A DNA stretch of 62,109 nt from Rickettsiales bacterium (GTDB taxonomy: Bacteria > Pseudomonadota > Alphaproteobacteria > Rs-D84): positions 32,001 through 94,109 of the forward strand of contig JAIRUP010000005.1 in assembly GCA_031254335.1 (NCBI GenBank), given 5' to 3'. The notes below the pieces were generated by a model. It saw nothing but the letters and a program-made list of their open reading frames with translations, did not search any database and had not been told where the DNA came from. How positions within the stretch are numbered: the first letter of the stretch is position 1; each line of letters opens with the position of its first letter. The position numbers and the translations under genes are program-made. Shown here piece after piece: positions 828 to 52,693 of this stretch.

Positions 828-2399
828 TTGGCAACCGATTTCAAGTCTTTCCGGGAAGATTTGCTGTCCCGCGCCAGCATTGTGGACATAGTGTCCAAAA
901 AAGTCCCCTTAAAGCCAAAGGGCAAGGACTTTTGGGGCTGCTGCCCGTTCCATAACGAGAAAACCCCGTCATTTTCCGTGAACGAGGACAAGGGATTCTA
1001 CCATTGCTTCGGCTGCGGCGCGCACGGCGGCGCGCTTGACTTCATCATGAAAACCGACAATCTGCCGTTCATGGAAGCCGTGGAATATCTGGCCGGAATC
1101 CTTGGCGTGCAGGTTCCGTCCTTCAAGCCCGTGGACCCCGCGCAGCAGCAGCGCGCGCTTGGCTATCTGGACATAATGTCCGGCGCGGCCGAGCTCTATT
1201 CCAAGGCTTTGTTCGATTCCGCCGGGGCCGAGGCCTTGAAATACTTGCGCGGCCGCGGCATTACGGACGACATAATAAGGCAGTATCAAATCGGCTTCGC
1301 GCCGCGCGGAAACTCTGTCTCTAACAAATTCGCAGCCAAGGCGAAAGACGCCTTATACGCGACCCAGCTTGTGAGGAAATCGTCGGCGGGCGCTGGTGAC
1401 TACGACTTTTTCCGGGACCGCATCATGTTCCCAATCCTTGACCCTAAGGGCCGGGTCATCGCGTTTTCGGGCCGCGCGATGGGAAGCGAAGAGCCGAAAT
1501 ACATCAATATAGCCGAGACGGAATTCTTCCATAAGAAGCGGACCCTTTACGGCCTTTATTACGCCAAGAAGGGAATCCTTGAATCCAAGCGCGCCATTGT
1601 CGTCGAGGGCCAGGTGGACGCAATCCAAATGCAGGGCGCGGGCTTTTTGGAAACTGTCGCGCCGCTGGGGTCCGCCCTGTCGAGCGACCATGTTCAGATT
1701 CTTCTGAAATTGACCAGGAACATCATATTCTGCTTCGACGGCGACACGGCCGGAAAGAAAGCCGCCGCCCGGGCGGTCGATGTTGTCATGCCCTTTATGC
1801 GCTCGGACATGTCGGTTAAAATCCTGACGCTGCCCGGGGGCCTGGACCCGGACGACATCCTTAAAAAACAGGGCGCGGAAAAGATGTCCGAGCTTGTGGG
1901 CGGGGCTGTTCCGATTGTGGATTATTTATGGGATTTGGCGAATGCCGGGTTCAATGTTCAGACCCCTGCCGGCCGGGCGAACGCCGAAAAATTCCTGAAA
2001 GCCCGGACGGGCGTTATACCGGACGAGGTTTTAAGGCGGCATATTGAGCAGGCGTTTAGGAATATGGAGTGGGAAAATTGGGCCAGGAAAACCACCGGGG
2101 CCAAAGCGGGGCCGATGCCGGGAAAGCCGAAATCGCCGGACGAGATTATGGGCGAAATCATCGAGGCATACCCCGGTCTTTATGAAAGGCATTTCGAGTT
2201 TCTTTCCGGCATTTCTGTTAAAAAAACCGGGAAAAAAACCGAGCTTTCCGAGCCGGAGGCCGAGCGGGTCGTCCGTATTAGGAAGGCGTCCGAATATAGG
2301 AAAAGCCTTCTTGCCGACCTTGCCCGGGCGACCGGGGACGCCGCCGAGGCACTTCGCGCCGAGCTGGAAAAGACGGAGAAGTTTTTGGAGGAAATATAA
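828..2399 (+). CDS. dnaG: DNA primase DnaG
   Basis: Makes the RNA primers for chromosome replication. The 523-residue product has the N-terminal CHC2 zinc finger (C39, H42, C60, C63), the RNA polymerase core, and a Toprim domain with the conserved VVEGQVDAI glutamate near residue 258 and the FDGD acidic cluster near 302. The start is TTG at 828, chosen because a GGGAGG Shine-Dalgarno lies just upstream and the conserved N-terminus begins there. It is shorter than the usual ~600 residues; the loss is in the C-terminal helicase-binding region, which is present only in reduced form. The rpoD that often follows dnaG is not here; a convergent gene follows instead. Confidence 0.95.
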   Translation: MATDFKSFREDLLSRASIVDIVSKKVPLKPKGKDFWGCCPFHNEKTPSFSVNEDKGFYHCFGCGAHGGALDFIMKTDNLPFMEAVEYLAGILGVQVPSFKPVDPAQQQRALGYLDIMSGAAELYSKALFDSAGAEALKYLRGRGITDDIIRQYQIGFAPRGNSVSNKFAAKAKDALYATQLVRKSSAGAGDYDFFRDRIMFPILDPKGRVIAFSGRAMGSEEPKYINIAETEFFHKKRTLYGLYYAKKGILESKRAIVVEGQVDAIQMQGAGFLETVAPLGSALSSDHVQILLKLTRNIIFCFDGDTAGKKAAARAVDVVMPFMRSDMSVKILTLPGGLDPDDILKKQGAEKMSELVGGAVPIVDYLWDLANAGFNVQTPAGRANAEKFLKARTGVIPDEVLRRHIEQAFRNMEWENWARKTTGAKAGPMPGKPKSPDEIMGEIIEAYPGLYERHFEFLSGISVKKTGKKTELSEPEAERVVRIRKASEYRKSLLADLARATGDAAEALRAELEKTEKFLEEI

Positions 2400-2457
2400 A
2401 AAGGAAGAAGGTGGAAGTAAGAAGGAAGAAGTGTTGCGTCGTCGCCTTGCGGCGACA
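2400..2457. repeat. Half copy of purine-rich inverted repeat
   Basis: A GGAAG/AGAAGG-rich tract (2400-2431) is followed by a GTCGCC-TTG-CGGCGAC hairpin. The same two parts, in the same order, make up one half of the long palindrome at 14605-14715. Here the second purine/pyrimidine arm is missing, so this looks like a truncated copy. It lies directly after the dnaG stop codon. Confidence 0.5.
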
Positions 2458-2460
2458 TTT

Positions 2461-2669
2461 TTATTACCTGGGTCCTCGGGTCAAGCCCGAGGATGACATA
2501 ATAAATAAACTCAAAAAATATTAGCGAGGTCGCGTTTTCGGCCCAAATCGTCCGAGGACCTAGGGAAGCCGACCCGAGTGTGGACTTGCCGTCCCCGAGT
2601 GGTAGGCTTCCCGAAGCGTCATTCGGCGATTTGGGCCGAAAACGAATTACCGAGATTTTATTTTTTGGC
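2461..2669. repeat. Composite palindromic element, copy A
   Basis: About 209 bp between dnaG and the convergent ftsA-rpe gene. It begins with a small hairpin (stem TCCTCGGG, 2473-2480, with CCCGAGGA, 2486-2493), continues through an AT-rich joint, then a large palindrome. The left arm 2510-2550 and right arm 2627-2669 match imperfectly; their innermost 16 bases (ending CCCAAATCG) are identical in inverted orientation. An inner stem GGGAAGCC/GGCTTCCC lies at 2563-2570 and 2605-2612. Both ends carry a T-run facing outward, so the palindrome could end transcription from both sides. The right arm contains the stop codon of the fusion gene. Copies B (34759) and C (40545) share the layout but little of the stem sequence. 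Confidence 0.75.
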
Positions 2670-4379
2670 ATTTGGTAAGAGTGAAAGAACGGCGGCTTTA
2701 AGGTCCGGGGCATGGGCGAGGTAGCTGCCGGAGACTAGGGCGTCCGCCCCGGCGTCCCAGCATAGTTTCGCAGTGTCTGGATTTATACCCCCGTCCACTA
2801 TGATTTCATATTTCAGCCTTGCTTTCCTTTTTACGGCTTTAAGCCTTCGGATTGTGTCCAGGCTGCCCGGCATGAATTCCTGGCCCCCCGCCCCCGGGGC
2901 CACCGACATCACGACGATTTTATCAAGGTGTTTTATTACGGGCCGAATCAGCGCCAAATCATGCTCGGGCGAAACGGCTATGCCGCATTTCCTTCCCGCC
3001 TGCTTGATGGCGGCGAGGTTCCGGCCGATGTTTTTGGAACCAATCGACAATATGATTGATTCCGCGCCGCCGCGGATGAATCCGCCGATTTCGCCCGCGG
3101 GGTCGCATGCCATGAGATGGGCCGACACTTTCAATTCGGACTTGCTTGTTATATGCCGGACCTCTGCCGCGCCGCCCGCCCGGGCCGGGACGAATTCCCC
3201 GTCCATGAAGTCGTAATGTATGGTCGTGATTCCGGCCGCCGTGAAAGCCCTAAGCGTGTCCGTTCCCATATCCCCGAACGCGAGCGAGCTTGGGTATATC
3301 GGGCATTTCCTTGCCGTTATTCCAAGGAGCAGCTTCCTTATGAACGCCGTCATGGGGTTTTTCCTTTGGGTTTTGGGTCTGCTTCGCATGAGTATGAGCC
3401 GCATGACGCTTTGCATGGCGGCGTCTTTGCCGAGCGTCTTGGCGTCCCGGCCCAGGGCTTCGCCGAATATGTTCCCCGCGCCTTCTATGGCCGCGCCGCC
3501 GCCGAAGAGAATCACTTTGTCCGGGATATGTGCGCCAGCGGCCTCTATGTTCCTTTTGACGGCCCGGGCCAAATCCTGGGTGAAATCGAATACAAGGCTT
3601 TTGTAATCGGCTATGCTTGCCGGGCCGATTGTCTCGAACTGGTCGCCGGGTTTCATGACCGCGCTGGAAATCCGCCTCTTTATTTTCTCGGCGTTTTCAA
3701 GGGAAATGCCGAATCTGTCCGAGAGCGCGCGCGTAAGCTCCGCCTGTCCCGCGCCGATTTCGGCCATATATATTATCCCGTTGCCGGTCGAGATGGAAAA
3801 GCGCGTCGCCGAGGCCCCTATGTTTATAAGCAGCGATTTCCCGGCCAGGGCGTTCATCGCGAACAGGATGTCGATTGCGCCCCGGGGCTCGATATAGCTT
3901 CCGCGGACATGGGACGCCAGCCGGGCCAAATGCGTCCGCGCGGCCAATACCCCGAAGAATTTGGCATGGAGCAGGCGGGCGGGCTCGCCGACCGGATTTT
4001 CGATATTCCGCGCCCTGTCCGTGTCGTATGACACCGGGACGAAATGGATTGCTTGAAGCTCGGGGTTTTTAAGCCCCGGCAGTTTGGATATAAGGCCCCG
4101 TATGTCGGCCTCCGATATTTTTCTTGTCCTGCCGAAATCGGTTTCGCCGGCCATGAGCATGGAATTGTTCCCGCCGAAAAACCCGGCTATATGGGCCTGC
4201 TTGAACCTTGTGCCCGTCTTTTCTTCCAAGGCGTCCAAAAGCGAATCCAAAGCCGCCTTTGGATTGTCCCTCGCGTCCCTTTCCATGATTATGCGCCCGC
4301 CGGCGGTATTTTCGCAAGCGGCGCGGATTTTTCGGTTTCCTATGTATAGCGCAAGAAGATATTCGCCCGTATAATTCAT
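2658..4379 (-). CDS. FtsA - ribulose-phosphate 3-epimerase fusion
   Basis: One uninterrupted frame of 573 codons joins two normally separate proteins. Residues 1-340 resemble a divergent FtsA, the actin-like membrane anchor of the division ring: the nucleotide-binding motifs are present but altered (INIGAS near 186, LFGGGAAIEG near 291). Residues 341-357 form a basic amphipathic stretch like the FtsA membrane-targeting helix. Residues 358-573 are a complete Rpe TIM barrel of the pentose phosphate pathway (HYDFMDGEFVP, SAHLMA, MSVAPGAGGQ, VDGGI, GADALVSGS). The FtsA identity is supported by ftsQ immediately upstream with a 4-bp overlap. An ATG at 3353, with AAAGGA about 8 nt before it, could also start a free Rpe from residue 343. 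No ftsZ follows. Confidence 0.8.
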   Translation of the reverse strand: MNYTGEYLLALYIGNRKIRAACENTAGGRIIMERDARDNPKAALDSLLDALEEKTGTRFKQAHIAGFFGGNNSMLMAGETDFGRTRKISEADIRGLISKLPGLKNPELQAIHFVPVSYDTDRARNIENPVGEPARLLHAKFFGVLAARTHLARLASHVRGSYIEPRGAIDILFAMNALAGKSLLINIGASATRFSISTGNGIIYMAEIGAGQAELTRALSDRFGISLENAEKIKRRISSAVMKPGDQFETIGPASIADYKSLVFDFTQDLARAVKRNIEAAGAHIPDKVILFGGGAAIEGAGNIFGEALGRDAKTLGKDAAMQSVMRLILMRSRPKTQRKNPMTAFIRKLLLGITARKCPIYPSSLAFGDMGTDTLRAFTAAGITTIHYDFMDGEFVPARAGGAAEVRHITSKSELKVSAHLMACDPAGEIGGFIRGGAESIILSIGSKNIGRNLAAIKQAGRKCGIAVSPEHDLALIRPVIKHLDKIVVMSVAPGAGGQEFMPGSLDTIRRLKAVKRKARLKYEIIVDGGINPDTAKLCWDAGADALVSGSYLAHAPDLKAAVLSLLPNAKK

Positions 4380-5062
4380 TGTTTGACCAGGATTCGCGCG
4401 GGGTCCCTAAGGTCGATTAGGGCCGCCTTCTTGTCCATGACCCCGAGGCTGTCAAGCCGGGCGAGCGCGGCCGCCAAATCCCCCTCGGGCAGCATGATTT
4501 TCGCGCCGCTTTTGGAGTATATGTTCCATCTGCGGCCCTCGACCTGCTCGATTGTCTTCATGCGCCGCCTGACATCCGGGAACTTGTTCAGGACTTTTAT
4601 GACGCCCGCCGGGTCTTTCGGCTTGCCGCCCGAGAATACGACGCTTCCCTGCGGGACCCTGTCTATCCTTTTTTCCATGACGCCGCCGCTTGCGGACAAT
4701 GGATAATGCTCTTTGCCGTCGAACCAGACGGCGACCGCCGCCTTTTCCGATATTATGACATACATCTTGCCGCCCGGCTCCCTTTTTATGGCCGCGTCGG
4801 AAATTTCGGGGATTTTAAGAAGGTTGGCCCTCATCTCTTTTATATTGTATTCGTAGATGGGCGAATTGGCCGAAACCCCGAGCGCGACCATAATCTTGGA
4901 CTGCGGGACGAGTTTCGGAGCGGGGACGATTAGGACCTGTTTTATCGCGCTGGCCCCGTCTATGCCGGAAAAAGTCGTAATCGTGCGCGCCCCGGCGTAA
5001 AGGCCCAGGATTAGGACGAGAAAAGCCGCCGCCCAGAAGAGGATTTTATTGTCTTTGTTCAT
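4376..5062 (-). CDS. ftsQ: Cell division protein FtsQ
   Basis: Bitopic inner-membrane protein linking the early and late parts of the divisome. The 228-residue product has a short cytoplasmic N-terminus, one membrane segment (about residues 8-26), a POTRA-like domain and a beta domain, and is of usual length for the family. Identification rests on this architecture and on the position directly before the ftsA-like gene (ATGA overlap 4376-4379). The start lies only six bases downstream of a TATAAT box, so the mRNA may be leaderless; it could also be read through from the glycosyltransferase gene upstream. Confidence 0.78.
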   Translation of the reverse strand: MNKDNKILFWAAAFLVLILGLYAGARTITTFSGIDGASAIKQVLIVPAPKLVPQSKIMVALGVSANSPIYEYNIKEMRANLLKIPEISDAAIKREPGGKMYVIISEKAAVAVWFDGKEHYPLSASGGVMEKRIDRVPQGSVVFSGGKPKDPAGVIKVLNKFPDVRRRMKTIEQVEGRRWNIYSKSGAKIMLPEGDLAAALARLDSLGVMDKKAALIDLRDPARILVKQ

Positions 5063-15109: not shown

Positions 15110-15797
15110 TTTTGCATCCGATTCCATCTATTTCGGCTTCTTCCTGACCCTGCTTGTCTTCGCCGCGGCCGTAAAGCTGAACAGGAAATACAATGTTTCC
15201 ATCACGACGCCTTTGCTCACATCCACCGTCGCCGTAATACTGCTTCTGAAATTGACGGGCATCCCATATTCCGCCTATAACGAGGGCGCGAAATACCTCT
15301 ATTATTTCATGGCCCCGGCCATAGTCTGCTTCGCCGTCCCCATATATCGCCAGATTAGGCTTATAAGCGAATACAAATGGGTCGTTATGGTGTCGATACT
15401 TGTCGGAAGCGTTGTGTCCGTCGCGTCGGTCGCGCTGCTTTCGAAATTGTTCGGCCTGGGCGACATAATCATGAAATCCCTGGTGACCGTATCCACCACC
15501 GCGGCCATAGGCGCGGATATAACGAAGGAACTTGGCGGCATAGTGGGCTTCACTATATTCGCCACCATCTCGACGGGCGTTTTGGGCAATGCCGTCGGGC
15601 GCCAGCTTGCCGGATTTTTGGGTTTGAGGGACCCGGCGGCCAAGGGCCTTGCCATGGGCAATTCGTCCCACGCGGCGGGCACGGCCAAAGCATTGGAGAT
15701 GGGCCGGGTCGAAGGCGCGTTCAGCAGCCTTTCGGTCGGCGTATCCGGCCTTATAACGGCGTTCATGGTGCCGGTTATAATTTGGTTGTTTTCTTAA
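15102..15797 (+). CDS. lrgB: LrgB/CidB family membrane protein
   Basis: A 231-residue inner-membrane protein with six to seven hydrophobic segments. It shows the LrgB pattern: NVSITTPLLTSTV near the N-terminus, KSLVTVSTTAAIGADI in the middle, and GNSSHAAGTAKALEMG towards the end. It forms a pair with the LrgA-like protein upstream. Family members influence autolysis and pyruvate uptake in Firmicutes; the role here is not known. Confidence 0.87.
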   Translation: MIDFASDSIYFGFFLTLLVFAAAVKLNRKYNVSITTPLLTSTVAVILLLKLTGIPYSAYNEGAKYLYYFMAPAIVCFAVPIYRQIRLISEYKWVVMVSILVGSVVSVASVALLSKLFGLGDIIMKSLVTVSTTAAIGADITKELGGIVGFTIFATISTGVLGNAVGRQLAGFLGLRDPAAKGLAMGNSSHAAGTAKALEMGRVEGAFSSLSVGVSGLITAFMVPVIIWLFS

Positions 15798-18107: not shown

Positions 18108-18152
18108 GCCCCATGCCTGCCCTGCGCTTCGCTTGCTCGGCATGGGGGCCCC
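18107..18152 (-). repeat. GGGG-N-CCCC palindrome, copy 1
   Basis: Read on the minus strand this has the family's GGGG/CCCC head (18145-18152), a stem GGCATGGGG (18139-18147) pairing with CCCCATGCC (18109-18117), and a 21-base inner part. The 39-base core is, on the other strand, identical to the two outer pieces of the nested element inside nrdG (38842-38934). It sits between the leuS stop codon and the lptE ribosome-binding site. Confidence 0.8.
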
Positions 18153-34751: not shown

Positions 34752-34758
34752 GGACAAA

Positions 34759-35009
34759 ATTACCTGGATGGTCGGGTGGGGCCCCGACCATGACAGTTTA
34801 ATTAATAATCTCAAAAAATCCATAGTTCGGTCGCAAAATCGAGGATAGATTTTCGAGGAACAAGAAAAACCGCCGCGCGTCTATACTGGCTGTATGCGAC
34901 CCCGGGCCCCGGAACATGCGAAGCATGTTCACGGGTGGGGATGGCGGTTTTTCGCAGTTAATCGGAAATATAGACCGATTTTGAAATACCGAACTAGGAT
35001 TTTTTGTCC
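34759..35009. repeat. Composite palindromic element, copy B
   Basis: Fills the 257 bp between the convergent PAP2-like and trxB genes. First comes a hairpin with stem ATGGTCGGG (34768-34776) and CCCGACCAT (34783-34791), then the large palindrome: left arm 34810-34841, right arm 34976-35009. The outer stem letters AGTTCGGT occur in both arms, whereas copy C has AGGGGTGT in both. The core 34866-34899 (AAAAACCGCC...TATGCGA) is nearly identical to copy C. A second palindrome of 43 bp is inserted at 34900-34942. The right end touches the trxB stop codon. T-runs face outward on both sides. Confidence 0.8.
34900..34942 (+). repeat. GGGG-N-CCCC palindrome, copy 2, inserted in copy B
   Basis: A 43-base GC-rich palindrome with head GGGCCCC, stem AACATGC-GAA-GCATGTT and tail GGGGA. 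It splits the hairpin of composite copy B. Copy C has a single A at the same place between TATGCG and GGCGG, so copy C represents the empty site. Confidence 0.75.
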
Positions 35010-35908
35010 TATCCAAGGTATTCGTTGGCTTCCATGGCGGCCTGCGCGCCTTGCCCCGCGGCGACGATTGCCTGTTTGGGGCTGCCGCTGCGGACATCGC
35101 CCGCAGCGAAAATCCCGGTGCCTTCTATTTGCGTTTTGTTCGGAATCGTTATAAGCCGCCCGTCCGCGTCCAAGGGAAGGCCGCCCGGCAGAAAGCCCGT
35201 GTTCGGAATGTGTCCGATTGCTATGAAGACGCCGTCCGCCGGAATTTCGCGCCCGTCTTTCATGATGACCTTTTGGACGAAATCCCCGCCCGCGATTTCC
35301 GCGATTTCGGAATTGAATTCCACGCGGATGTTCGGGCGCGACGCGACGCGGTCATTTAGGATTTTTTCGGTCCTGGAAAATTCGCCCTTGCGGTATGATA
35401 TTATGACGGATTTTGCGATATGCGACAGATGCAGGGCCTCTGATAACGCGGAATTGCCGCCGCCGACCACTATGACGGTCATGTTCTTATAGAAATTCCC
35501 GTCGCATGTCGCGCAAAAACTCACCCCGCGGCCCGTGAATTCAGCCTCTCCCGGGACGCCCAGGCGGCGGGCTTCCGCGCCGGTGGCGACGATTACCGCC
35601 CGGGCCTCTATTTCATTGCCGAGGGTCGTCTTTATTATATAGGATTCTTTTCCCTTTTGTATATTCTCGGCCGAATCGCCCATGAATTCCGCGCCGAAGC
35701 CAACTGCTTGATTTTTCATGGTTTCGAACAGGTCCATGCCCGAAATCCGGCCGTGTGTTCCGGGATAGTTTTCAAGCTCGGCGATTCGCCCCATCTGGCC
35801 CCCTGGCGTGCCGCCCAAGATGGAAACTTTCCTGCCCGCGCGGCTCGAATACAAGGCAGAAGCCAGTCCCGCGGGACCGGAGCCTAAAATGACTATGTCG
35901 AATTTCAT
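35009..35908 (-). CDS. trxB: Thioredoxin reductase
   Basis: FAD/NADPH enzyme that reduces thioredoxin. The 299-residue protein has the FAD motif GSGPAGLASA at the N-terminus, the redox pair CATC (about residue 130), the NADPH motif VVGGGNSA and the second FAD motif GIFAAGDV. Length is slightly below average. Its stop codon TAG is the last part of composite repeat copy B. It serves TrxA and, by inference, the class III reductase if that uses thioredoxin. Confidence 0.95.
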   Translation of the reverse strand: MKFDIVILGSGPAGLASALYSSRAGRKVSILGGTPGGQMGRIAELENYPGTHGRISGMDLFETMKNQAVGFGAEFMGDSAENIQKGKESYIIKTTLGNEIEARAVIVATGAEARRLGVPGEAEFTGRGVSFCATCDGNFYKNMTVIVVGGGNSALSEALHLSHIAKSVIISYRKGEFSRTEKILNDRVASRPNIRVEFNSEIAEIAGGDFVQKVIMKDGREIPADGVFIAIGHIPNTGFLPGGLPLDADGRLITIPNKTQIEGTGIFAAGDVRSGSPKQAIVAAGQGAQAAMEANEYLG

Positions 35909-36202
35909 AAAATTTGCCCTCTGTTTCGGTAAATATTAATCATTTTTACAGGGCTGGGCAAGCCAAACTTGCCAAAACGGATGGTTTTTATTAAAAGAAT
36001 TGCCAAAACAGGGGTTTGTTTTTCTAAAATTCCCAATAAAAAATCCCATAAGTTATTGTTTTTTCTAACATCAAGGGAAAAAAGTGAAAAAATGAAAAAA
36101 TTCCTCATGCGAATCGCCTTAAAATACTACATATTGTGTTGGAAGGGCCAAAAGTCGTCTATATCTTGATTTTTGGCGGAAATGCGAAGAAAAAGGCTGC
36201 AA
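35909..36202. other. AT-rich intergenic region upstream of nrdD
   Basis: This 290-bp gap between divergent trxB and nrdD is much richer in A and T than its surroundings, with many A- and T-runs. I see no convincing gene in it. It holds one likely NrdR box (36124-36139). A short frame starting with ATGAAAAAATTCC near 36092 lacks a good ribosome-binding site and is probably chance. Confidence 0.5.
36124..36139 (+). promoter_or_regulatory. Putative NrdR box
   Basis: ATACTACATATTGTGT agrees at 14 of 16 positions with the NrdR consensus (ACACWATATATWGTGT). It lies about 60-80 bp before the nrdD start, where NrdR represses ribonucleotide reductase genes in many bacteria. A second box is expected about 30 bp away; near 36154-36169 only a poor match around CTATAT is present. 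No nrdR gene is in the window. Confidence 0.5.
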
Positions 36203-38227
36203 GTGGTTAAATTCAAGACTGCGATACCGAAAAATATCATAAAACGCGACGGAACCGTCGTGCCTTTCGATGTTTCCAAGATTTCCCATGCCATAGATTT
36301 GGCCGGCCGCGCCACGACTCCCTTCGCGGAAGACCAGGTCGCCGAACTTACCAACAAGGTCATAGACATAATCAACCATAAATACAAGGCGGACCAGGCC
36401 GTCTTCATAGAAAAGATTCAGGACATCGTCGAGCAGGTCCTTCTCGCCGCGGGACACTATGAAACCGCGAAGGACTATATCCTTTACCGCGAGAAGCGCA
36501 CCCAGGCGCGCCAGATGGTGGATGTCGAGAAATCCGTTTCCGATTATTTGAACCAGATGGATTGGCGCGTCAAGGAAAACGCGAATATCGGCTATTCCCT
36601 TGGCGGCATGATTCTTAACATTTCGGGCAAGGTTATCGCCAATTACTGGCTGAGCTGCATTTATCCAAGCGAAATCGGCGAGGCGCACAGGAACGGCGAT
36701 TTTCATATACACGATTTGTCCATGCTGTCGGGATACTGCGCCGGCTGGTCGCTCCGCATGTTGTTGGAAGAAGGCTTCAACGGCGTCCCCGGCCATATAG
36801 AGGCCGGCCCCGCCAAACATCTTTCCGCCGCCGTCGGGCAGATGGTCAATTTCATGGGGACTTTGCAGAACGAATGGGCCGGCGCGCAGGCTTTCAGCTC
36901 GGTCGACACATATCTCGCGCCCTATGTCCGTTTGGACGATATGGATTACAAGGAAGTCCGGCAGAAGATTCAGGAGCTTGTGTTCAATCTTTCGGTCCCT
37001 TCCCGCTGGGGAACCCAGACGCCTTTCACGAACTTCACATTCGACATGGTCTGCCCGGCCGACTTGGCCTCGCAAAAGCCCAAAATCGGCGGAAAATTCT
37101 GCGACTTCACCTATGGCGAATTGCAGAAGGAAATGGACATGATTAACAAGGCCTATATCGAGGTCATGACGACGGGGGACGCCAAGGGCCGCCCCTTCAC
37201 ATTCCCCATGCCGACATACAATATCACCCCCGAATTCAAATGGGAGGGCGAGATTCCCGACATGATTTTCGAGATGACCGCGAAATACGGAATGCCTTAT
37301 TTCTCGAACTTCATAAATTCCGACATGAAGCCCAGCGATGTCCGTTCTATGTGCTGCCGCCTGCGCCTCGATGTGCGCGAGCTGTTGAAGCGCGGAAACG
37401 GCCTTTTCGGTTCGGCCGAAATGACCGGCAGCATCGGCGTCGTAACCGTCAACTGCGCGCGCCTGGGCTATATTTACAAGGGGAATTTGGACGGGCTTTA
37501 CTATCGCTTGGACCAGCTGATGAACCTGGCCAAATCGTCGCTTGAAATAAAGCGGAAGACCGTGCAGAAACTTATGGACGCGGGGCTTTATCCTTTCACC
37601 AAAAGATACCTTGGGACTTTGCGCAACCATTTCTCGACCATCGGAATCAACGGCATAAACGAGATGATTCGGAACTTCACGGACGACGCGTTCGATTTGA
37701 CCGACGCGAAGGGACAGAAGATGGCGCTTGATTTCATGGACCATATGCGCGAAAAGATGCAGGAATTCCAGGCGGAGACCGGGCATATGTATAATCTGGA
37801 AGCCACCCCGGGCGAAGGCAGCACATATCGCTTCGCCAAGGAAGACGCGAAGCTCTACGGCGGCAAAATCCTTCAAGCGGGTCCAAAGGACGCGCCGTAT
37901 TACACGAATTCTTCCCAGCTTCATCCGGGCGCGTCCGACGATATGTTCGAGGTTTTGGACTTGCAGGACGAATTGCAGACCAAATACACGGGCGGCAGCG
38001 TCCTGCATTTGTATATGGGCGAACGCCTGTCCAGCGCGGACGCGGCCAAGAAAATCATAAGAAAGATATTCGAGAATTACCGCGTGCCGTATATAACGCT
38101 TACACCGACATTCTCGATTTGCCCCAAGCACGGGTATATCGCGGGACAGCACGAATACTGCCCGACCTGCGACGCCGAGACTTTGAAACAAACGAACGCA
38201 TGCAACTGCGACAACATAGGAGAGTGA
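36203..38227 (+). CDS. nrdD: Anaerobic ribonucleotide reductase NrdD, lacking radical tail
   Basis: Class III reductase making deoxynucleotides without oxygen. It begins with an ATP-cone (KRDGTVVPFDVSKI), continues with the ten-stranded barrel of NrdD, and ends with the zinc ribbon (CPKHGYIAGQHEYCPTC). A normal NrdD continues with the glycyl-radical segment (RVxGY-type). Here TGA at 38225 ends the frame 20 codons after the last zinc cysteines; the radical segment is in the next ORF in another frame. Start uncertain: GTG 36203 has AAAGG at good distance, ATG 36182 and TTG 36173 are alternatives. The main frame has no other damage. Confidence 0.9.
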   Translation: MVKFKTAIPKNIIKRDGTVVPFDVSKISHAIDLAGRATTPFAEDQVAELTNKVIDIINHKYKADQAVFIEKIQDIVEQVLLAAGHYETAKDYILYREKRTQARQMVDVEKSVSDYLNQMDWRVKENANIGYSLGGMILNISGKVIANYWLSCIYPSEIGEAHRNGDFHIHDLSMLSGYCAGWSLRMLLEEGFNGVPGHIEAGPAKHLSAAVGQMVNFMGTLQNEWAGAQAFSSVDTYLAPYVRLDDMDYKEVRQKIQELVFNLSVPSRWGTQTPFTNFTFDMVCPADLASQKPKIGGKFCDFTYGELQKEMDMINKAYIEVMTTGDAKGRPFTFPMPTYNITPEFKWEGEIPDMIFEMTAKYGMPYFSNFINSDMKPSDVRSMCCRLRLDVRELLKRGNGLFGSAEMTGSIGVVTVNCARLGYIYKGNLDGLYYRLDQLMNLAKSSLEIKRKTVQKLMDAGLYPFTKRYLGTLRNHFSTIGINGINEMIRNFTDDAFDLTDAKGQKMALDFMDHMREKMQEFQAETGHMYNLEATPGEGSTYRFAKEDAKLYGGKILQAGPKDAPYYTNSSQLHPGASDDMFEVLDLQDELQTKYTGGSVLHLYMGERLSSADAAKKIIRKIFENYRVPYITLTPTFSICPKHGYIAGQHEYCPTCDAETLKQTNACNCDNIGE

Positions 38228-38423: not shown

Positions 38424-38467
38424 TCCCCAAAAATTCGATTCCTGCGGAATGGATTTTCGGGGGCCCC
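38424..38467 (-). repeat. GGGG-N-CCCC palindrome, copy 3
   Basis: On the minus strand: head GGGG-CCCC (38460-38467), stem AAAAT..ATTCC with loop GCA and return GGAAT..ATTTT, tail GGGGA (38424-38428). It lies between the glycyl-radical ORF and nrdG and might form a stem between the two cistrons. Confidence 0.7.
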
Positions 38468-38487
38468 GAAATAAAAAAGGATTCGAA

Positions 38488-39339
38488 GTGAACTGTCCTG
38501 TTGCCGGGGGCATGACCCCCTTTACTACTATCGACTATCCGGGCAAAATGGCGGCCGTGGTGTTTCTGAAAGGCTGCCCTTGGAGATGTAAATACTGCTC
38601 CAATCCCGTCCTGTTCGGGGCGGACCGCGCTCCCAAGGCGGATGTGAAGAATTGGGAAAAAATAATCGAATTCTTAAAAAAACGCGCAGGTCTCTTGGAA
38701 GCCGTTGTCTTCTCGGGCGGCGAGGCGACCATGCAGGCCGACGCCCTGATTCCCGCTATTGAAGAGATTAAGGCGATACATAACTCCCCCCTTGCGGGGG
38801 AGTCTAAACCGCAAAGCGGTTTAGGTGGGGGGACAAGGGGTCCCCATGCCGAGCAAGCGACCGGGTTCCCGCGACCGAGCAAGCAAAGCGAAGCGCAGGT
38901 CGTGGGACGCGGGAAGCGCAGGGCAGGCATGGGGGGATACTTCATCGGGCTTCACACCAACGGCGCGCTGCCGGAAAATCTGAAAAAATTATTGCCGCAT
39001 GTCGATTGGGTGGGCTTGGACATCAAGGCGGACAAGGCGAATTACGACGCGCTGACGGGCGCGAAAAACTCTTGGGAAAACGCGGTGGAAAGTTTGGACG
39101 CCATTATTGCATGGGGCGGCGAATTCGAGGTTAGGACGACCCTTGACCCGCGCTTTATATCGAAAGAATCCCTGATGGAATTGGCGGAATTCCTGCGCGC
39201 CCGGGGCGTCAAAAATTACGCCGTTCAGAAATTGAACCAAGTGGGGTTGGCGGGGAACGATGCGCCCGCCGCCTTTTACGAATTGTTCGACGAGGACAAG
39301 CTGCGCGCCATGTTCGCCAAGTTCGAGGTCAGGGGATAG
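38488..39339 (+). CDS. nrdG: Anaerobic NrdD-activating enzyme NrdG, with repeat insertion
   Basis: Radical SAM protein that creates the glycyl radical on NrdD. It has CPWRCKYC for the 4Fe-4S cluster (Cys30, 34, 37) and the FSGGE motif (75-79), with the later GLHTNG and VGLDIKA strands. The start is GTG 38488 (AAGG upstream); ATG 38512 is possible. Residues 99-150 do not belong to the family: they are encoded by a cluster of palindromic repeats inserted in frame between the first SAM motif helix and the GLHTNG strand, raising the length from about 230 to 283. The frame is intact, so the protein may still work if the insert loops out. Confidence 0.9.
   Translation: MNCPVAGGMTPFTTIDYPGKMAAVVFLKGCPWRCKYCSNPVLFGADRAPKADVKNWEKIIEFLKKRAGLLEAVVFSGGEATMQADALIPAIEEIKAIHNSPLAGESKPQSGLGGGTRGPHAEQATGFPRPSKQSEAQVVGRGKRRAGMGGYFIGLHTNGALPENLKKLLPHVDWVGLDIKADKANYDALTGAKNSWENAVESLDAIIAWGGEFEVRTTLDPRFISKESLMELAEFLRARGVKNYAVQKLNQVGLAGNDAPAAFYELFDEDKLRAMFAKFEVRG
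38783..38937. repeat. Nested palindromic repeats inside nrdG
   Basis: Three parts. (1) ACTCCCCC-CTTGC-GGGGGAGT (38783-38803). (2) CTAAACCGC-AAA-GCGGTTTAG (38804-38824), both perfect. (3) A GGGG-N-CCCC element (copy 4, 38837-38937) with stem CCCCATGCC (38842-38850)/GGCATGGGG (38926-38934). Removing 38860-38913 from part 3 leaves exactly the 39-base core found after leuS (18109-18147, other strand). The removed 54 bases, 18 codons, form a palindrome of the same kind (TTCCCGCGACC ... GGACGCGGGA). So one repeat has gone into another and the reading frame was kept. Confidence 0.85.
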
Positions 39340-40533: not shown

Positions 40534-40544
40534 TGATTTCCCCC

Positions 40545-40757
40545 TTATTACCTGGATGGTCGGATTAAATCCGACCATGACAATTTAATGATAATAAATA
40601 AACTCAAAAAATATTAGGGGTGTCGCAAAATCGAGAACAGATTGTTCAGTATCAAGCAAAACCGCCGCGCGTCTATACTGGCTGTATGCGAAGGCGGTTT
40701 TGCGAAGATAATGGACGATATGGGCCGATTTTGAAAAACACCCCTTTTTTTTTGTCC
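40545..40757. repeat. Composite palindromic element, copy C
   Basis: Fills the gap between ftsK and the hydrolase gene. Hairpin ATGGTCGG (40556-40563)/CCGACCAT (40571-40578), AT-rich joint, then the large palindrome with outer stem AGGGGTGT (from 40615) and ACACCCCT (40737-40744 region). Inside is AAAACCGCC (40658-40666)/GGCGGTTTT (40693-40701) around the 25-base core shared with copy B. The AAAATCG/CGATTTT step is kept in both. The right end runs through a T-run to within a base of the ftsK stop codon. No insertion is present in the core. Confidence 0.8.
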
Positions 40758-42884
40758 TTACCTGATATGCCTTTTGCCGTTGCCGTCGGGGGCGGTTATT
40801 ATGCCGTCCTTCTCCATGCGCTCTATAAAGGTCGCGGCCTTGTTGTATCCGATGCGAAGGACGCGCTGGACATAGCTTACGGTCGGCTTCTTGTCGCGGA
40901 CGACGGCCTCGACCGCTTGGTTATACAGCGCGCCGTCCTTGTCGTCCTTGGACGGTTTCATGCCAGGTATGACAAGGCTGGCCGCGCCGTCCTCGTCCTC
41001 TCCGATTCCTTCCATGTATTCGGGCTCTCCCTGCTTTTTCAGGAATTCCGCGACGGCGTGCGCCTCGGGGCCGCTGACGAAGGCCGCGTGTATTCTGACC
41101 GGCGCGCGCCCTCCCTCCAAATAAAGCATGTCGCCCGCCGGCAGAAGCTGTTCCGCGCCCTTGGTGGCGAGTATGGTTATGCTGTCCACGGCGGATAGGG
41201 TCTGGAAGCTTATGCGGGTCGGGAAATTCGCCTTGATGACGCCGGTTATGGTTTCGACGCTTGGCCGCTGGGTTGCGATTACGACATGGATTCCGGCGGC
41301 GCGCGCCTTTTGGGCAAGCCTTTGCAGGCAGGCCTCGACTTCCTTGCCGCCCGTCATCATAAGGTCGGCCATCTCGTCTATGATTAGGACAAGGTATGGC
41401 ATGTCGGCCAAATCCATGGGGCGGGTTTCGTATATCACGCCGCCGGTTTCGGAATCGGTGCCGCAGGCGACTTGTTCCGTTAACACCTCGCCGCTGTCGC
41501 GAAGCTCGGCCATCTTTTCGTTATAGGTCGCGAGGTTCTGGACGCCGTGCTTTTTGAGTTTATTGTATCTGTTCTCCATTTCGGCGACGGCCCATTTAAG
41601 GGTCTTCACCGATTTCATCGCGTCCGTCACCACCGGGGTCAAAAGGTGCGGTATGCCGTCCCAAAGGGTGAAGTCGACGCCCTTGGGGTCGATTAGTATC
41701 AGCTTGCATTCGTCGGGCCGGAACTTATACAGGACGGACAGAATGATGGATTGGATGAAGACCGATTTGCCGGTCCCGGTCCTTCCCGCAATCATAAGGT
41801 GCGGCATCCGGGCCAAGTCGGCATAAACGGGCTCGCCCCCTATGCTGACGCCGAGGGCGATTGGAATCCCCATTTTGCTGTCCGTGAATTTGGGGTTCGC
41901 CATAAGGTTTTGGAGGCGCACCGTCTGGCGGGTTATGTTGGGAAGCTCTACCCCGATGACGGTGGTTCCGGCGATATGCGCCATGCGGATATTTTCCGAC
42001 GCCATGACCCGGGTTATGTCTTTGACGGTCTCGGTAATTTTGGTCGTCTTGACGCCCCGTCCCGGCTCGAACTCGTAAAGGGTCACAATCGGCCCGGGCT
42101 TTATTCCGACGACCGAACCCTCGACCCCGAACTCCATCAGCTTGTCTTGGAGCGACACGGCGGCCTGGCGTTGCTGGGGTCCCACGGTCTGTTTCGCGGC
42201 GACCCCTTTTTCCAAAATGGACAGGGGCGGATACTGATAGTTCTTTGCCGGCTTTTTCGCCGATTTTGCCGGTATTTTGCGCGGCTGGCTGCGCGCGGCC
42301 GGGGCGGCTTTCTTGAATATCGATTTGCGCGTTCTCGCCGGGCGGCATTCTTCCGGCGTTTCCGTGAATTCGTCGGCATTGTCCCGGCCGAAAAGATTGA
42401 AAAGCCATGCTATATGCCGGGACTTGATTCCGCCGAGTATCGTGAATATGGCGAGGCTTGCGGCTATCAGCGGCAGGCCGACCAATAGGCCGAGCGCGGG
42501 CATTATGCCGGATATATCGTGCCAGGCGACCGCCCCAAGGACCCCCCCGAACGCCCCCCGGGTGACAAGCCCCGTCCCGAACGACGCCAGCATGACGGAT
42601 AGGGTGCCTAGCAGGACCGGCAGCTGGATGTCGGCGAGGCGGACGGTCTTCCATAAAAGGATATATCCCCCCTTGAAGGCGTAAAGGCAAAGTATGAGCG
42701 CGGCGAAGGTCCCGACCGAGTTCCTGAACGCTTCGGCTATGGACGAGAGGAGGCTGGTGTCGGACACATCGTAGAATGCGAGGGCCAGCACCACGACCAT
42801 GCCGGATACGATTGCGGCGAAACCCAGCGCGGCCGAAAGCGTCCGTTTTATAAAATCCCGAAAAGCGTTGGGTAGGAATTGCAA
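40758..42884 (-). CDS. ftsK: DNA translocase FtsK
   Basis: Pumps chromosome ends through the septum and activates XerCD (xerD is at 50518). The 708-residue protein has four N-terminal membrane helices (about 15-165), a short basic Pro/Lys linker (175-230), the motor with Walker A AGRTGTGKS near 370 and Walker B LVLIIDEMADL, and a C-terminal gamma winged helix (YVQRVLRIGYNKAATFIERME) that reads KOPS. The start is TTG at 42884 with AAAAAGGA upstream. The linker is short compared with E. coli. Confidence 0.94.
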   Translation of the reverse strand: MQFLPNAFRDFIKRTLSAALGFAAIVSGMVVVLALAFYDVSDTSLLSSIAEAFRNSVGTFAALILCLYAFKGGYILLWKTVRLADIQLPVLLGTLSVMLASFGTGLVTRGAFGGVLGAVAWHDISGIMPALGLLVGLPLIAASLAIFTILGGIKSRHIAWLFNLFGRDNADEFTETPEECRPARTRKSIFKKAAPAARSQPRKIPAKSAKKPAKNYQYPPLSILEKGVAAKQTVGPQQRQAAVSLQDKLMEFGVEGSVVGIKPGPIVTLYEFEPGRGVKTTKITETVKDITRVMASENIRMAHIAGTTVIGVELPNITRQTVRLQNLMANPKFTDSKMGIPIALGVSIGGEPVYADLARMPHLMIAGRTGTGKSVFIQSIILSVLYKFRPDECKLILIDPKGVDFTLWDGIPHLLTPVVTDAMKSVKTLKWAVAEMENRYNKLKKHGVQNLATYNEKMAELRDSGEVLTEQVACGTDSETGGVIYETRPMDLADMPYLVLIIDEMADLMMTGGKEVEACLQRLAQKARAAGIHVVIATQRPSVETITGVIKANFPTRISFQTLSAVDSITILATKGAEQLLPAGDMLYLEGGRAPVRIHAAFVSGPEAHAVAEFLKKQGEPEYMEGIGEDEDGAASLVIPGMKPSKDDKDGALYNQAVEAVVRDKKPTVSYVQRVLRIGYNKAATFIERMEKDGIITAPDGNGKRHIR

Positions 42885-42901: not shown

Positions 42902-43018
42902 AACTCCCCCCTTGCGGGGGAGTATGAATTTGCGAAGTAAATTCAGGCGGGGGGATAAATACCGCATTGTCCCCCCACCGGCTCCTTCGTCGCCGGCTCC
43001 CCCGCAAGGGGGGAGCTG
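42902..43018. repeat. Repeat cluster between tatA and ftsK
   Basis: ACTCCCCC-CTTGC-GGGGGAGT (about 42903-42923) is the same hairpin as in nrdG at 38783. Its inverted partner CTCCCCC-GCAAG-GGGGGAG lies at 42997-43015, so the whole cluster is also a large palindrome. Between them are TGAATTT/AAATTCA (42924-42944) and GCCGG/CCGGC-type hairpins. The cluster fills the tatA-ftsK gap on the minus strand. Confidence 0.75.
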
Positions 43019-51616: not shown

Positions 51617-52693
51617 TTAGTTCTTGTTGAAAGATAGGATGTATGTAAGCGAGAAAAACGCGATGGCGAGCGGCGGCATGGCCACGGCCACCCATGGCGG
51701 AAGCATTCCCGCGCTTCCCATGCTTCCGAACAGGTTGATTGTGAAATAAAGTATGAAGCTTACCAGGATTCCCATGCTGATTTTAAGGCCGAACGAATGG
51801 AACCTGCGCGCGCGGGTCTGCGAGAACGCCATCCCGAGCGCAACCATCGCCATAAGGGTCAGCGGCATGAAGAGCAGGCTTAGAAGCTGGACCAGATGCG
51901 GCCTGTTGTTCATGCCCATTTTGGAAAGGCTTTGGACGAATTCGGGCAGGTCCCAGAATGAAATCTCGGCCGGCTTCATATACCGTTCCCGCAGGTTTTG
52001 CAGGGTTATGTTTGACGGGATTCTGAATTTCTCGGCCCGGGGCATGCCGTCCATTCCATAGACCGCGACCAAGTCGCCGCCGCTGGAAAACTCGCCGTCC
52101 GAGAGAAGCAGGGTCGGAATTTGCGCGCGGGATACTTCGGTGCTTCCCTTTTTTTGGACTATGACCGTGGCGTCCGTGAATCCGGCGGTGTCCTGCCATA
52201 TGTCGAGGCGGCTTGCGCGGACTATCGTGCGGGATTCCCCGGTGTTTTCGGTAAGCCATATTTTTCCGTCGACCGTGTTGGTGTATGCGCTGCTTGCGCC
52301 CGATATATGCCTGCTGAAACTAATCGAGAGCGGATTTAATACGGTTGTGGCGAATATGCCGACCACGGCCGCCGAAAGCGCGACGGGCCTCATGATTCTA
52401 AGCGGGGACAGCCCCGCGCTTTGGATGATTACCATTTCCGAAGACCTGATAAGCTGGTATGTCATCAAAAGGACCGCAAGGAATACGACCAGCGGCAGAA
52501 AAAGCGGAGTCCATTCCAGAAGTTTGGAAATCGCCGCCGCGAACGCGCCGCCCGCGGTTTCCGCCCGGCCCAGTTCCTCGACGAAGGATATGGAAAGGAT
52601 TACGGCGGATACGATAAGCAGCACCAGGCCCAGGCTTTTCATGAACTTGCCGGACAAAAGCCGCGAAATTATGGTGCGCCAATGGATAATCAT
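51617..52693 (-). CDS. lptG: LPS export permease LptG/LptF
   Basis: A 358-residue protein of the YjgP/YjgQ family that lifts lipopolysaccharide from the inner membrane with LptB2C. Six membrane helices flank a periplasmic beta-jellyroll (about 125-235). Motifs such as VVFLAVLLMTYQLIRSSEMV are typical. Only one permease gene is present here; the partner must be elsewhere. LptG is more likely than LptF but this is not certain. Confidence 0.85.
   Translation of the reverse strand: MIIHWRTIISRLLSGKFMKSLGLVLLIVSAVILSISFVEELGRAETAGGAFAAAISKLLEWTPLFLPLVVFLAVLLMTYQLIRSSEMVIIQSAGLSPLRIMRPVALSAAVVGIFATTVLNPLSISFSRHISGASSAYTNTVDGKIWLTENTGESRTIVRASRLDIWQDTAGFTDATVIVQKKGSTEVSRAQIPTLLLSDGEFSSGGDLVAVYGMDGMPRAEKFRIPSNITLQNLRERYMKPAEISFWDLPEFVQSLSKMGMNNRPHLVQLLSLLFMPLTLMAMVALGMAFSQTRARRFHSFGLKISMGILVSFILYFTINLFGSMGSAGMLPPWVAVAMPPLAIAFFSLTYILSFNKN

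Follow-up and report, generated by a model that had tools for sequence, protein, structure and literature searches.

The stretch of DNA analysed here, referred to as the window, comprises 62,109 nucleotides of contig JAIRUP010000005.1 from a Rickettsiales genome; coordinates without a contig label are those of the window, C1 to C14 denote the contigs of the host genome (G000), G002 and G003 are genomes of the same genus, and L-numbers designate loci fetched from the host genome or its relatives. On the plus strand at 38488-39339, downstream of its neighbour nrdD (36173-38227), lies nrdG, a gene with a GTG start whose 283-residue product is the activating enzyme of an anaerobic ribonucleotide reductase. 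Its assignment to the NrdG2 type is based on a match to TIGR02495 well above the cut-off (170.6 bits against 131.15), on the radical SAM cysteine motif GCPWRCKYC and on the adjoining nrdD. This gene is interrupted at 38782-38937 (plus strand) by 156 nt, or 52 codons (residues 99-150), through which the reading frame stays open with no stop codon, in agreement with the original prediction of an in-frame insert in an essential-type radical SAM enzyme. The extent proposed there, 38783-38937 and about 50 residues, was nearly right; the borders were set by G002, which reads ATG AAT / TAT where the host reads ATA CAT, the 52 codons and TAC.

The search of relatives covered 118 genomes, 62 of which had a match above the threshold used. 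None of these matches crossed residues 98-143 of the query, and a gap was observed at the insert site in every aligned relative locus; in G002, query residues 1-97 and 150-282 directly adjoin. The insert, missing in the aligned relatives, is therefore a recent, lineage-specific gain, and the alignment of relatives that had been proposed as a refutation check left the reading as an insertion standing. The nrdG of the congeneric G003 carries its own 44-residue insert (KSNHPAACGGTPP...) at another turn, which is likewise a chain of hairpins. Both of these independent inserts fall where a helix leads by a turn into the following strand, and in a radical SAM barrel such turns face away from the active site. 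A single-sequence AlphaFold2 model, weak as a whole (mean pLDDT of 43) and too poor to place the loop, assigned its lowest confidence to the insert, which follows helix 84-98 and precedes strand 150-157, and agrees with the insert being probably an unstructured stretch between these two elements.

Three parts were recognized in the insert, namely a two-hairpin repeat termed element A and two palindromes, P1 and P2, the latter lodged at the apex of the former. The 156 nt fold much better than dinucleotide shuffles (z = -5.5, 0/200). Element A occupies 38782-38836 on the plus strand and is composed of a conserved hairpin (38783-38803), a variable hairpin (38804-38824) and a G-rich 3' end (GGTGGGGGGACAA). 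The two perfect hairpins previously noticed at this place are both real, the second with nine perfect pairs, and they constitute one recurring unit rather than two. On the same strand, the left part of P1 (GGGGTCCCCATGCCGAGCAAGCG) is found at 38837-38859, P2 at 38860-38913, and the right part of P1 together with the final bases of the insert at 38914-38937. As originally claimed, removal of 38860-38913 restores a 39-mer (CCCCATGCCGAGCAAGCGAAGCGCAGGGCAGGCATGGGG) that is the perfect reverse complement of 18109-18147, where P1 stands alone on the minus strand, between leuS and an lptE-like gene, and represents the nested element in its empty form. The excised piece has 54 nt, corresponding to 18 codons, so that its loss preserves the frame, and it is largely self-complementary, also as stated. 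Cuts at 38859-38912, 38860-38913 and 38861-38914 all give the same 39-mer because GA stands at either end of the piece, and this GA on both sides of P2 could be a 2-bp target duplication. A further hairpin with P1-like ends (GGGGGCCCCGAAA) and another stem was read by eye at 38425-38478, in the gap between nrdD and nrdG.

The P1+P2 nest had been taken as direct evidence of successive insertions into nrdG, a claim that did not hold, since the full composite occurs again, at C14:51771-51863, in an intergenic position and with 91 of 93 nt identical. Moreover, P1 has at C14 the full T6CGGGGCC end (TTTTTTCGGGGCC) that is also present in the leuS copy and is missing in nrdG. As the whole composite is also found between genes, its origin need not lie in nrdG; formation elsewhere and arrival in complete form are quite possible and were judged likelier than an origin in place. 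The alternative is that A and P1 were inserted into nrdG and P2 subsequently into P1, all in frame, with C14 as a later copy. This is consistent with the lengths of P2 and of P1 alone (39 nt, 13 codons), which would leave the intermediate open, and with the identity between the nrdG P1 freed of P2 and the leuS copy, two changes being present in the copy at C14. It is opposed by the distribution of the P1 end, retained in the C14 and leuS copies and not in nrdG; by the A|P1 boundary, which divides the 156 nt as 55+101, so that the P2 step of 54 nt is the sole unambiguous multiple of three; and by the repeated nesting of P2 in intergenic palindromes, from which it follows that nest formation needs no coding context. 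Stepwise insertion within the gene thus appears unlikely.

This nesting was observed in several palindrome families. When P2 was excised together with its ends and the flanks were joined, five independent nests each matched a separate empty sibling palindrome: the nrdG/C14 nest matched the P1 at C1:50109-50152; that at C3:9509, a CCCCGGCC REP in G002; that at C12:726, a CCCCTCC element at C12:18197-18247; that at C2:9848, a GATTCCAGC REP at C14:9468-9419; and that at L134 of G003, a ATTCCCGC REP at L134:2783-2819. At L137 of G002, P2 lies inside a P2-like element and the sibling is weaker, and the L138 copy of P2 is not nested. The break in every nest falls at or close to the tip of the host hairpin, in alignments read by eye. 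The nrdG and L137 nests are arguable because P1 and P2 have a common core; the REP and CCCCTCC hosts have nothing in common with P2. Some nesting is expected by chance because the surviving nests are mostly intergenic, where other repeats are dense, but the tip position is not. A composite at G002:C41 was considered as the same nest as that of nrdG and rejected, as its outer element is of the P2 type; it is therefore a separate nest and gives no date for the one in nrdG. A mosaic also recurs at C14:42934-43035 and 51712-51863, where a CCCCTCC-type element precedes a P1-type hairpin, the ends being the same and the stems different.

The census of element A, which covered 417 of 750 kb (about 56% of the genome, window included) and relied on a simple home-made gene caller, revealed 25 copies, 14 within called genes and 11 between them, although called genes make up 82-90% of the sequence. 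Exact cores of the element numbered 42 genome-wide, 11 in G002, 2 in G003 and hardly any elsewhere in the family, and the reversed control pattern gave 0 matches. The copies are found in both orientations, scattered over unrelated genes and gaps; for example, two of them lie in inverted order at 42902-43017, in the intergenic region directly upstream of an ftsK-like gene. The sequence of hairpin 2 changes between copies while its pairing is kept, with the four outermost pairs present in 24-25 of the 25 copies by means of several pair types; 7.5 pairs are formed in genic copies and 8.8 in intergenic ones, where shuffled sequences form about 4. Since at least four reading frames of the element are used (giving, for instance, NSPLAGES, LPPCGG, TPPLRG and DSPARGEL), it is the DNA that recurs and not a peptide.

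Comparison with Rfam related element A to whalefall-1 (RF01762), described as a noncoding RNA known only from whale-fall metagenomes (PMC2864571). Six copies aligned over the full length of the model (L062:6775-6831, 15708-15760, 3279-3336 and 4947-5002; L068:464-519; and window 38781-38834, the nrdG copy, at 21.6 bits), the best with 34.4 bits and an E-value of 2.9e-5, all of them under the gathering score of 37. Both have a conserved first hairpin, a variable and covarying second one and a G-rich, GAGGAC-like 3' end; unlike whalefall-1 as described, element A is a dispersed repeat also found inside coding frames. It could accordingly be proposed that a functional RNA, be it a regulatory hairpin or a small RNA resembling whalefall-1, was selected at this site of the nrdG message, as the full-length matches and the covariation of hairpin 2 would suggest. 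Against this stand the scores under the gathering threshold, the dispersal of copies, in either orientation, among unrelated genes and intergenic gaps, and the coding strand, on which no terminator-like site was found, so that such a role is improbable. Conversely, the Rfam family itself may represent a dispersed repeat.

The intact frame would also suit an old, conserved functional feature of the NrdG protein, a reading that is refuted by the alignments, in which the segment is missing from G002, G003 and the other aligned relatives, and that is made all the less credible by the same DNA outside genes and by the several frames of element A. Similarly, the host genome is a draft of 14 contigs from a metagenome bin, and repeats are hard to assemble, but an assembly artefact is scarcely conceivable given that many genes, in several separately assembled genomes, have retained their frame and that the elements, at 50-160 nt, are comparable to a read in length or shorter.

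The insertion of repeats into open frames is not restricted to nrdG. Such repeats were found within the called genes mnmG, polA, dnaX, infB, dusB, hemW, mtaB, a LysM/M23 gene and others, and ten repeat-carrying proteins compared with NCBIfam matched the expected housekeeping families. The frame remains open through four repeat-derived segments in hemW (C8:15453-16592) and through three in mtaB (C8:42077-43363). Alignments of mnmG, hemW and mtaB revealed that the host inserts are missing in some relatives, and that other relatives carry different palindromic inserts in their place, at the same or neighbouring turns; the hemW and mtaB genes of G002 and G003 carry independent inserts. Furthermore, in three further genera of the family (G004, G013 and G010), mnmG contains near-perfect in-frame palindromes of 108-174 nt (z of -10 to -11.5), all at one common turn (L078:2812-2940, L081:2893-3000 and L085:1291-1464). 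Other candidates were discarded: ffh is not a clean insertion, as its repeat-filled loop is also present in E. coli (net +4 residues), and the segments of cysS and addA are not palindromes, the 45-nt segment being a purine-rich repeat. Purine-rich, non-palindromic GGAAGAAGTAAGAAG repeats are in fact common between genes and also occur in frame in addA, whose product matches the alphaproteobacterial AddA model, and in cysS (C12:17433-17472 and C8:21169-21212). This AddA match and the leuS-lptE gene order are the basis for assigning the host to its class. A second, longer family is MITE-like: its members measure about 170-300 nt, end in sequences such as AATAAACTCAAAAAATATTAG and contain a long inverted repeat, and many copies are spread over the genome, three of them in the window (2399-2673, 34758-35016 and 40544-40763).

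We consider it highly probable that a REP-like compound consisting of A and P1/P2 entered nrdG after the split from the nearest relative compared and has been tolerated as a loop. The spreading unit would be a DNA element and not a peptide, and the P1+P2 nest would predate its entry into the gene. Transcription and translation of the insert would be expected to yield a loop of 52 residues, probably unstructured, at a helix-to-strand turn of the radical SAM barrel, and the enzyme would tolerate this loop because it points away from the active site. Purifying selection would remove the copies that are out of frame or badly placed, leaving tolerated loops as the survivors. The selection for an open frame that had been put forward is plausible, although one gene is insufficient to establish it, since intragenic copies are detectable as inserts only when the frame is open and frame preservation is thus partly an ascertainment effect. 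Regarding mobility, no match to a Y1 transposase (RAYT/IS200, PF01797) and no IS110 transposase was found in the host genome (92.8% complete), and one Y1 match was found in G003; mobility is therefore deduced from the copies. No sequence resembling the insert was found in the plasmid and phage collections, and a search of genome contigs for related loci gave just two distant archaeal fragments. The elements would not depend on a self-encoded enzyme for their spread; some other factor would mobilise them, or they would be copied at hairpins through template switching or the insertion of single strands, and either of these latter processes would explain the presence of P2 in the tips of other palindromes. 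The wider proposal, in which P2 is a small mobile palindrome with a specific preference for the tips of other palindromes, elements of the whalefall-1 kind are mobile repeats and not RNA genes, and both have repeatedly and independently lengthened loops of housekeeping enzymes throughout this family of reduced alphaproteobacteria with no known transposase, is a tentative one and, taken as a whole, somewhat doubtful.

These repeats were compared with known systems by their features. Ten families of Rickettsia palindromic elements (RPEs) have been described, many of them in frame, and with these and the Wolbachia palindromic elements (WPEs) the present repeats have in common palindromic units in many copies, in frame in unrelated genes and also intergenic, in alphaproteobacteria with small genomes and mostly as tolerated loops (PMC3767692, PMC10969869, PMC4224334). 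The host repeats are indeed dispersed, multi-copy palindromes, unbroken within the frames of unrelated protein genes. The differences are that A, P1 and P2 are shorter units from another lineage; that element A, with its several frames, has no single conserved peptide or preferred frame, as an RPE family does; and that orthologous genes carry different inserts or none, nrdG being empty in G002 and filled elsewhere in G003, whereas most RPE sites are common to Rickettsia. The original comparison with RPEs is thus sound as to the general kind, which is broader than thought, and fails as to the conserved peptide and the shared sites. Among REPs, the CGTC type is frequent in alphaproteobacteria; RPE-4 and RPE-6 belong to it, its members may lie inside genes, and no transposase is known for it (PMC3733652). 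The CGTC and GTAG REPs (Di Nocera et al. 2013, PMC3733652) are likewise short dispersed palindromes sometimes found in frame in genes, and the GTCAT..ATGAC repeats of the host genome resemble the CGTC type. In contrast, a reading of the copies did not reveal a GTAG or CGTC tag at the stem end of all A, P1 and P2 copies: A and P1 have neither, and P2 has CGTC in the nrdG/C14 composite and not in its other copies. Because two RPE features are missing and no REP tag is present in all copies, the repeats are regarded as RPE-like in their working and are not filed as RPEs. Mobile elements are known to insert into REPs, which serve as targets of ISs (PMC1525189), and GTAG-15 dimers occur within long palindromes (PMC3733652); P2 resembles these cases as a second element lodged in a palindrome, and differs from them in being a small palindrome without genes that was seen in the tips of palindromes from several unrelated families.

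The link between element A and whalefall-1 casts doubt on that Rfam family as an RNA gene, and the tip habit of P2 makes a single-strand or template-switch mechanism testable. In the open-licence literature, in-frame palindromic insertion has so far been characteristic of Rickettsia and Wolbachia, apart from scattered cases of REPs in other organisms. The repeats described here belong to a different alphaproteobacterial lineage in which several species carry different inserts in one gene, which allows a direct comparison of insertion sites, of the turns that tolerate them and of the succession of events.
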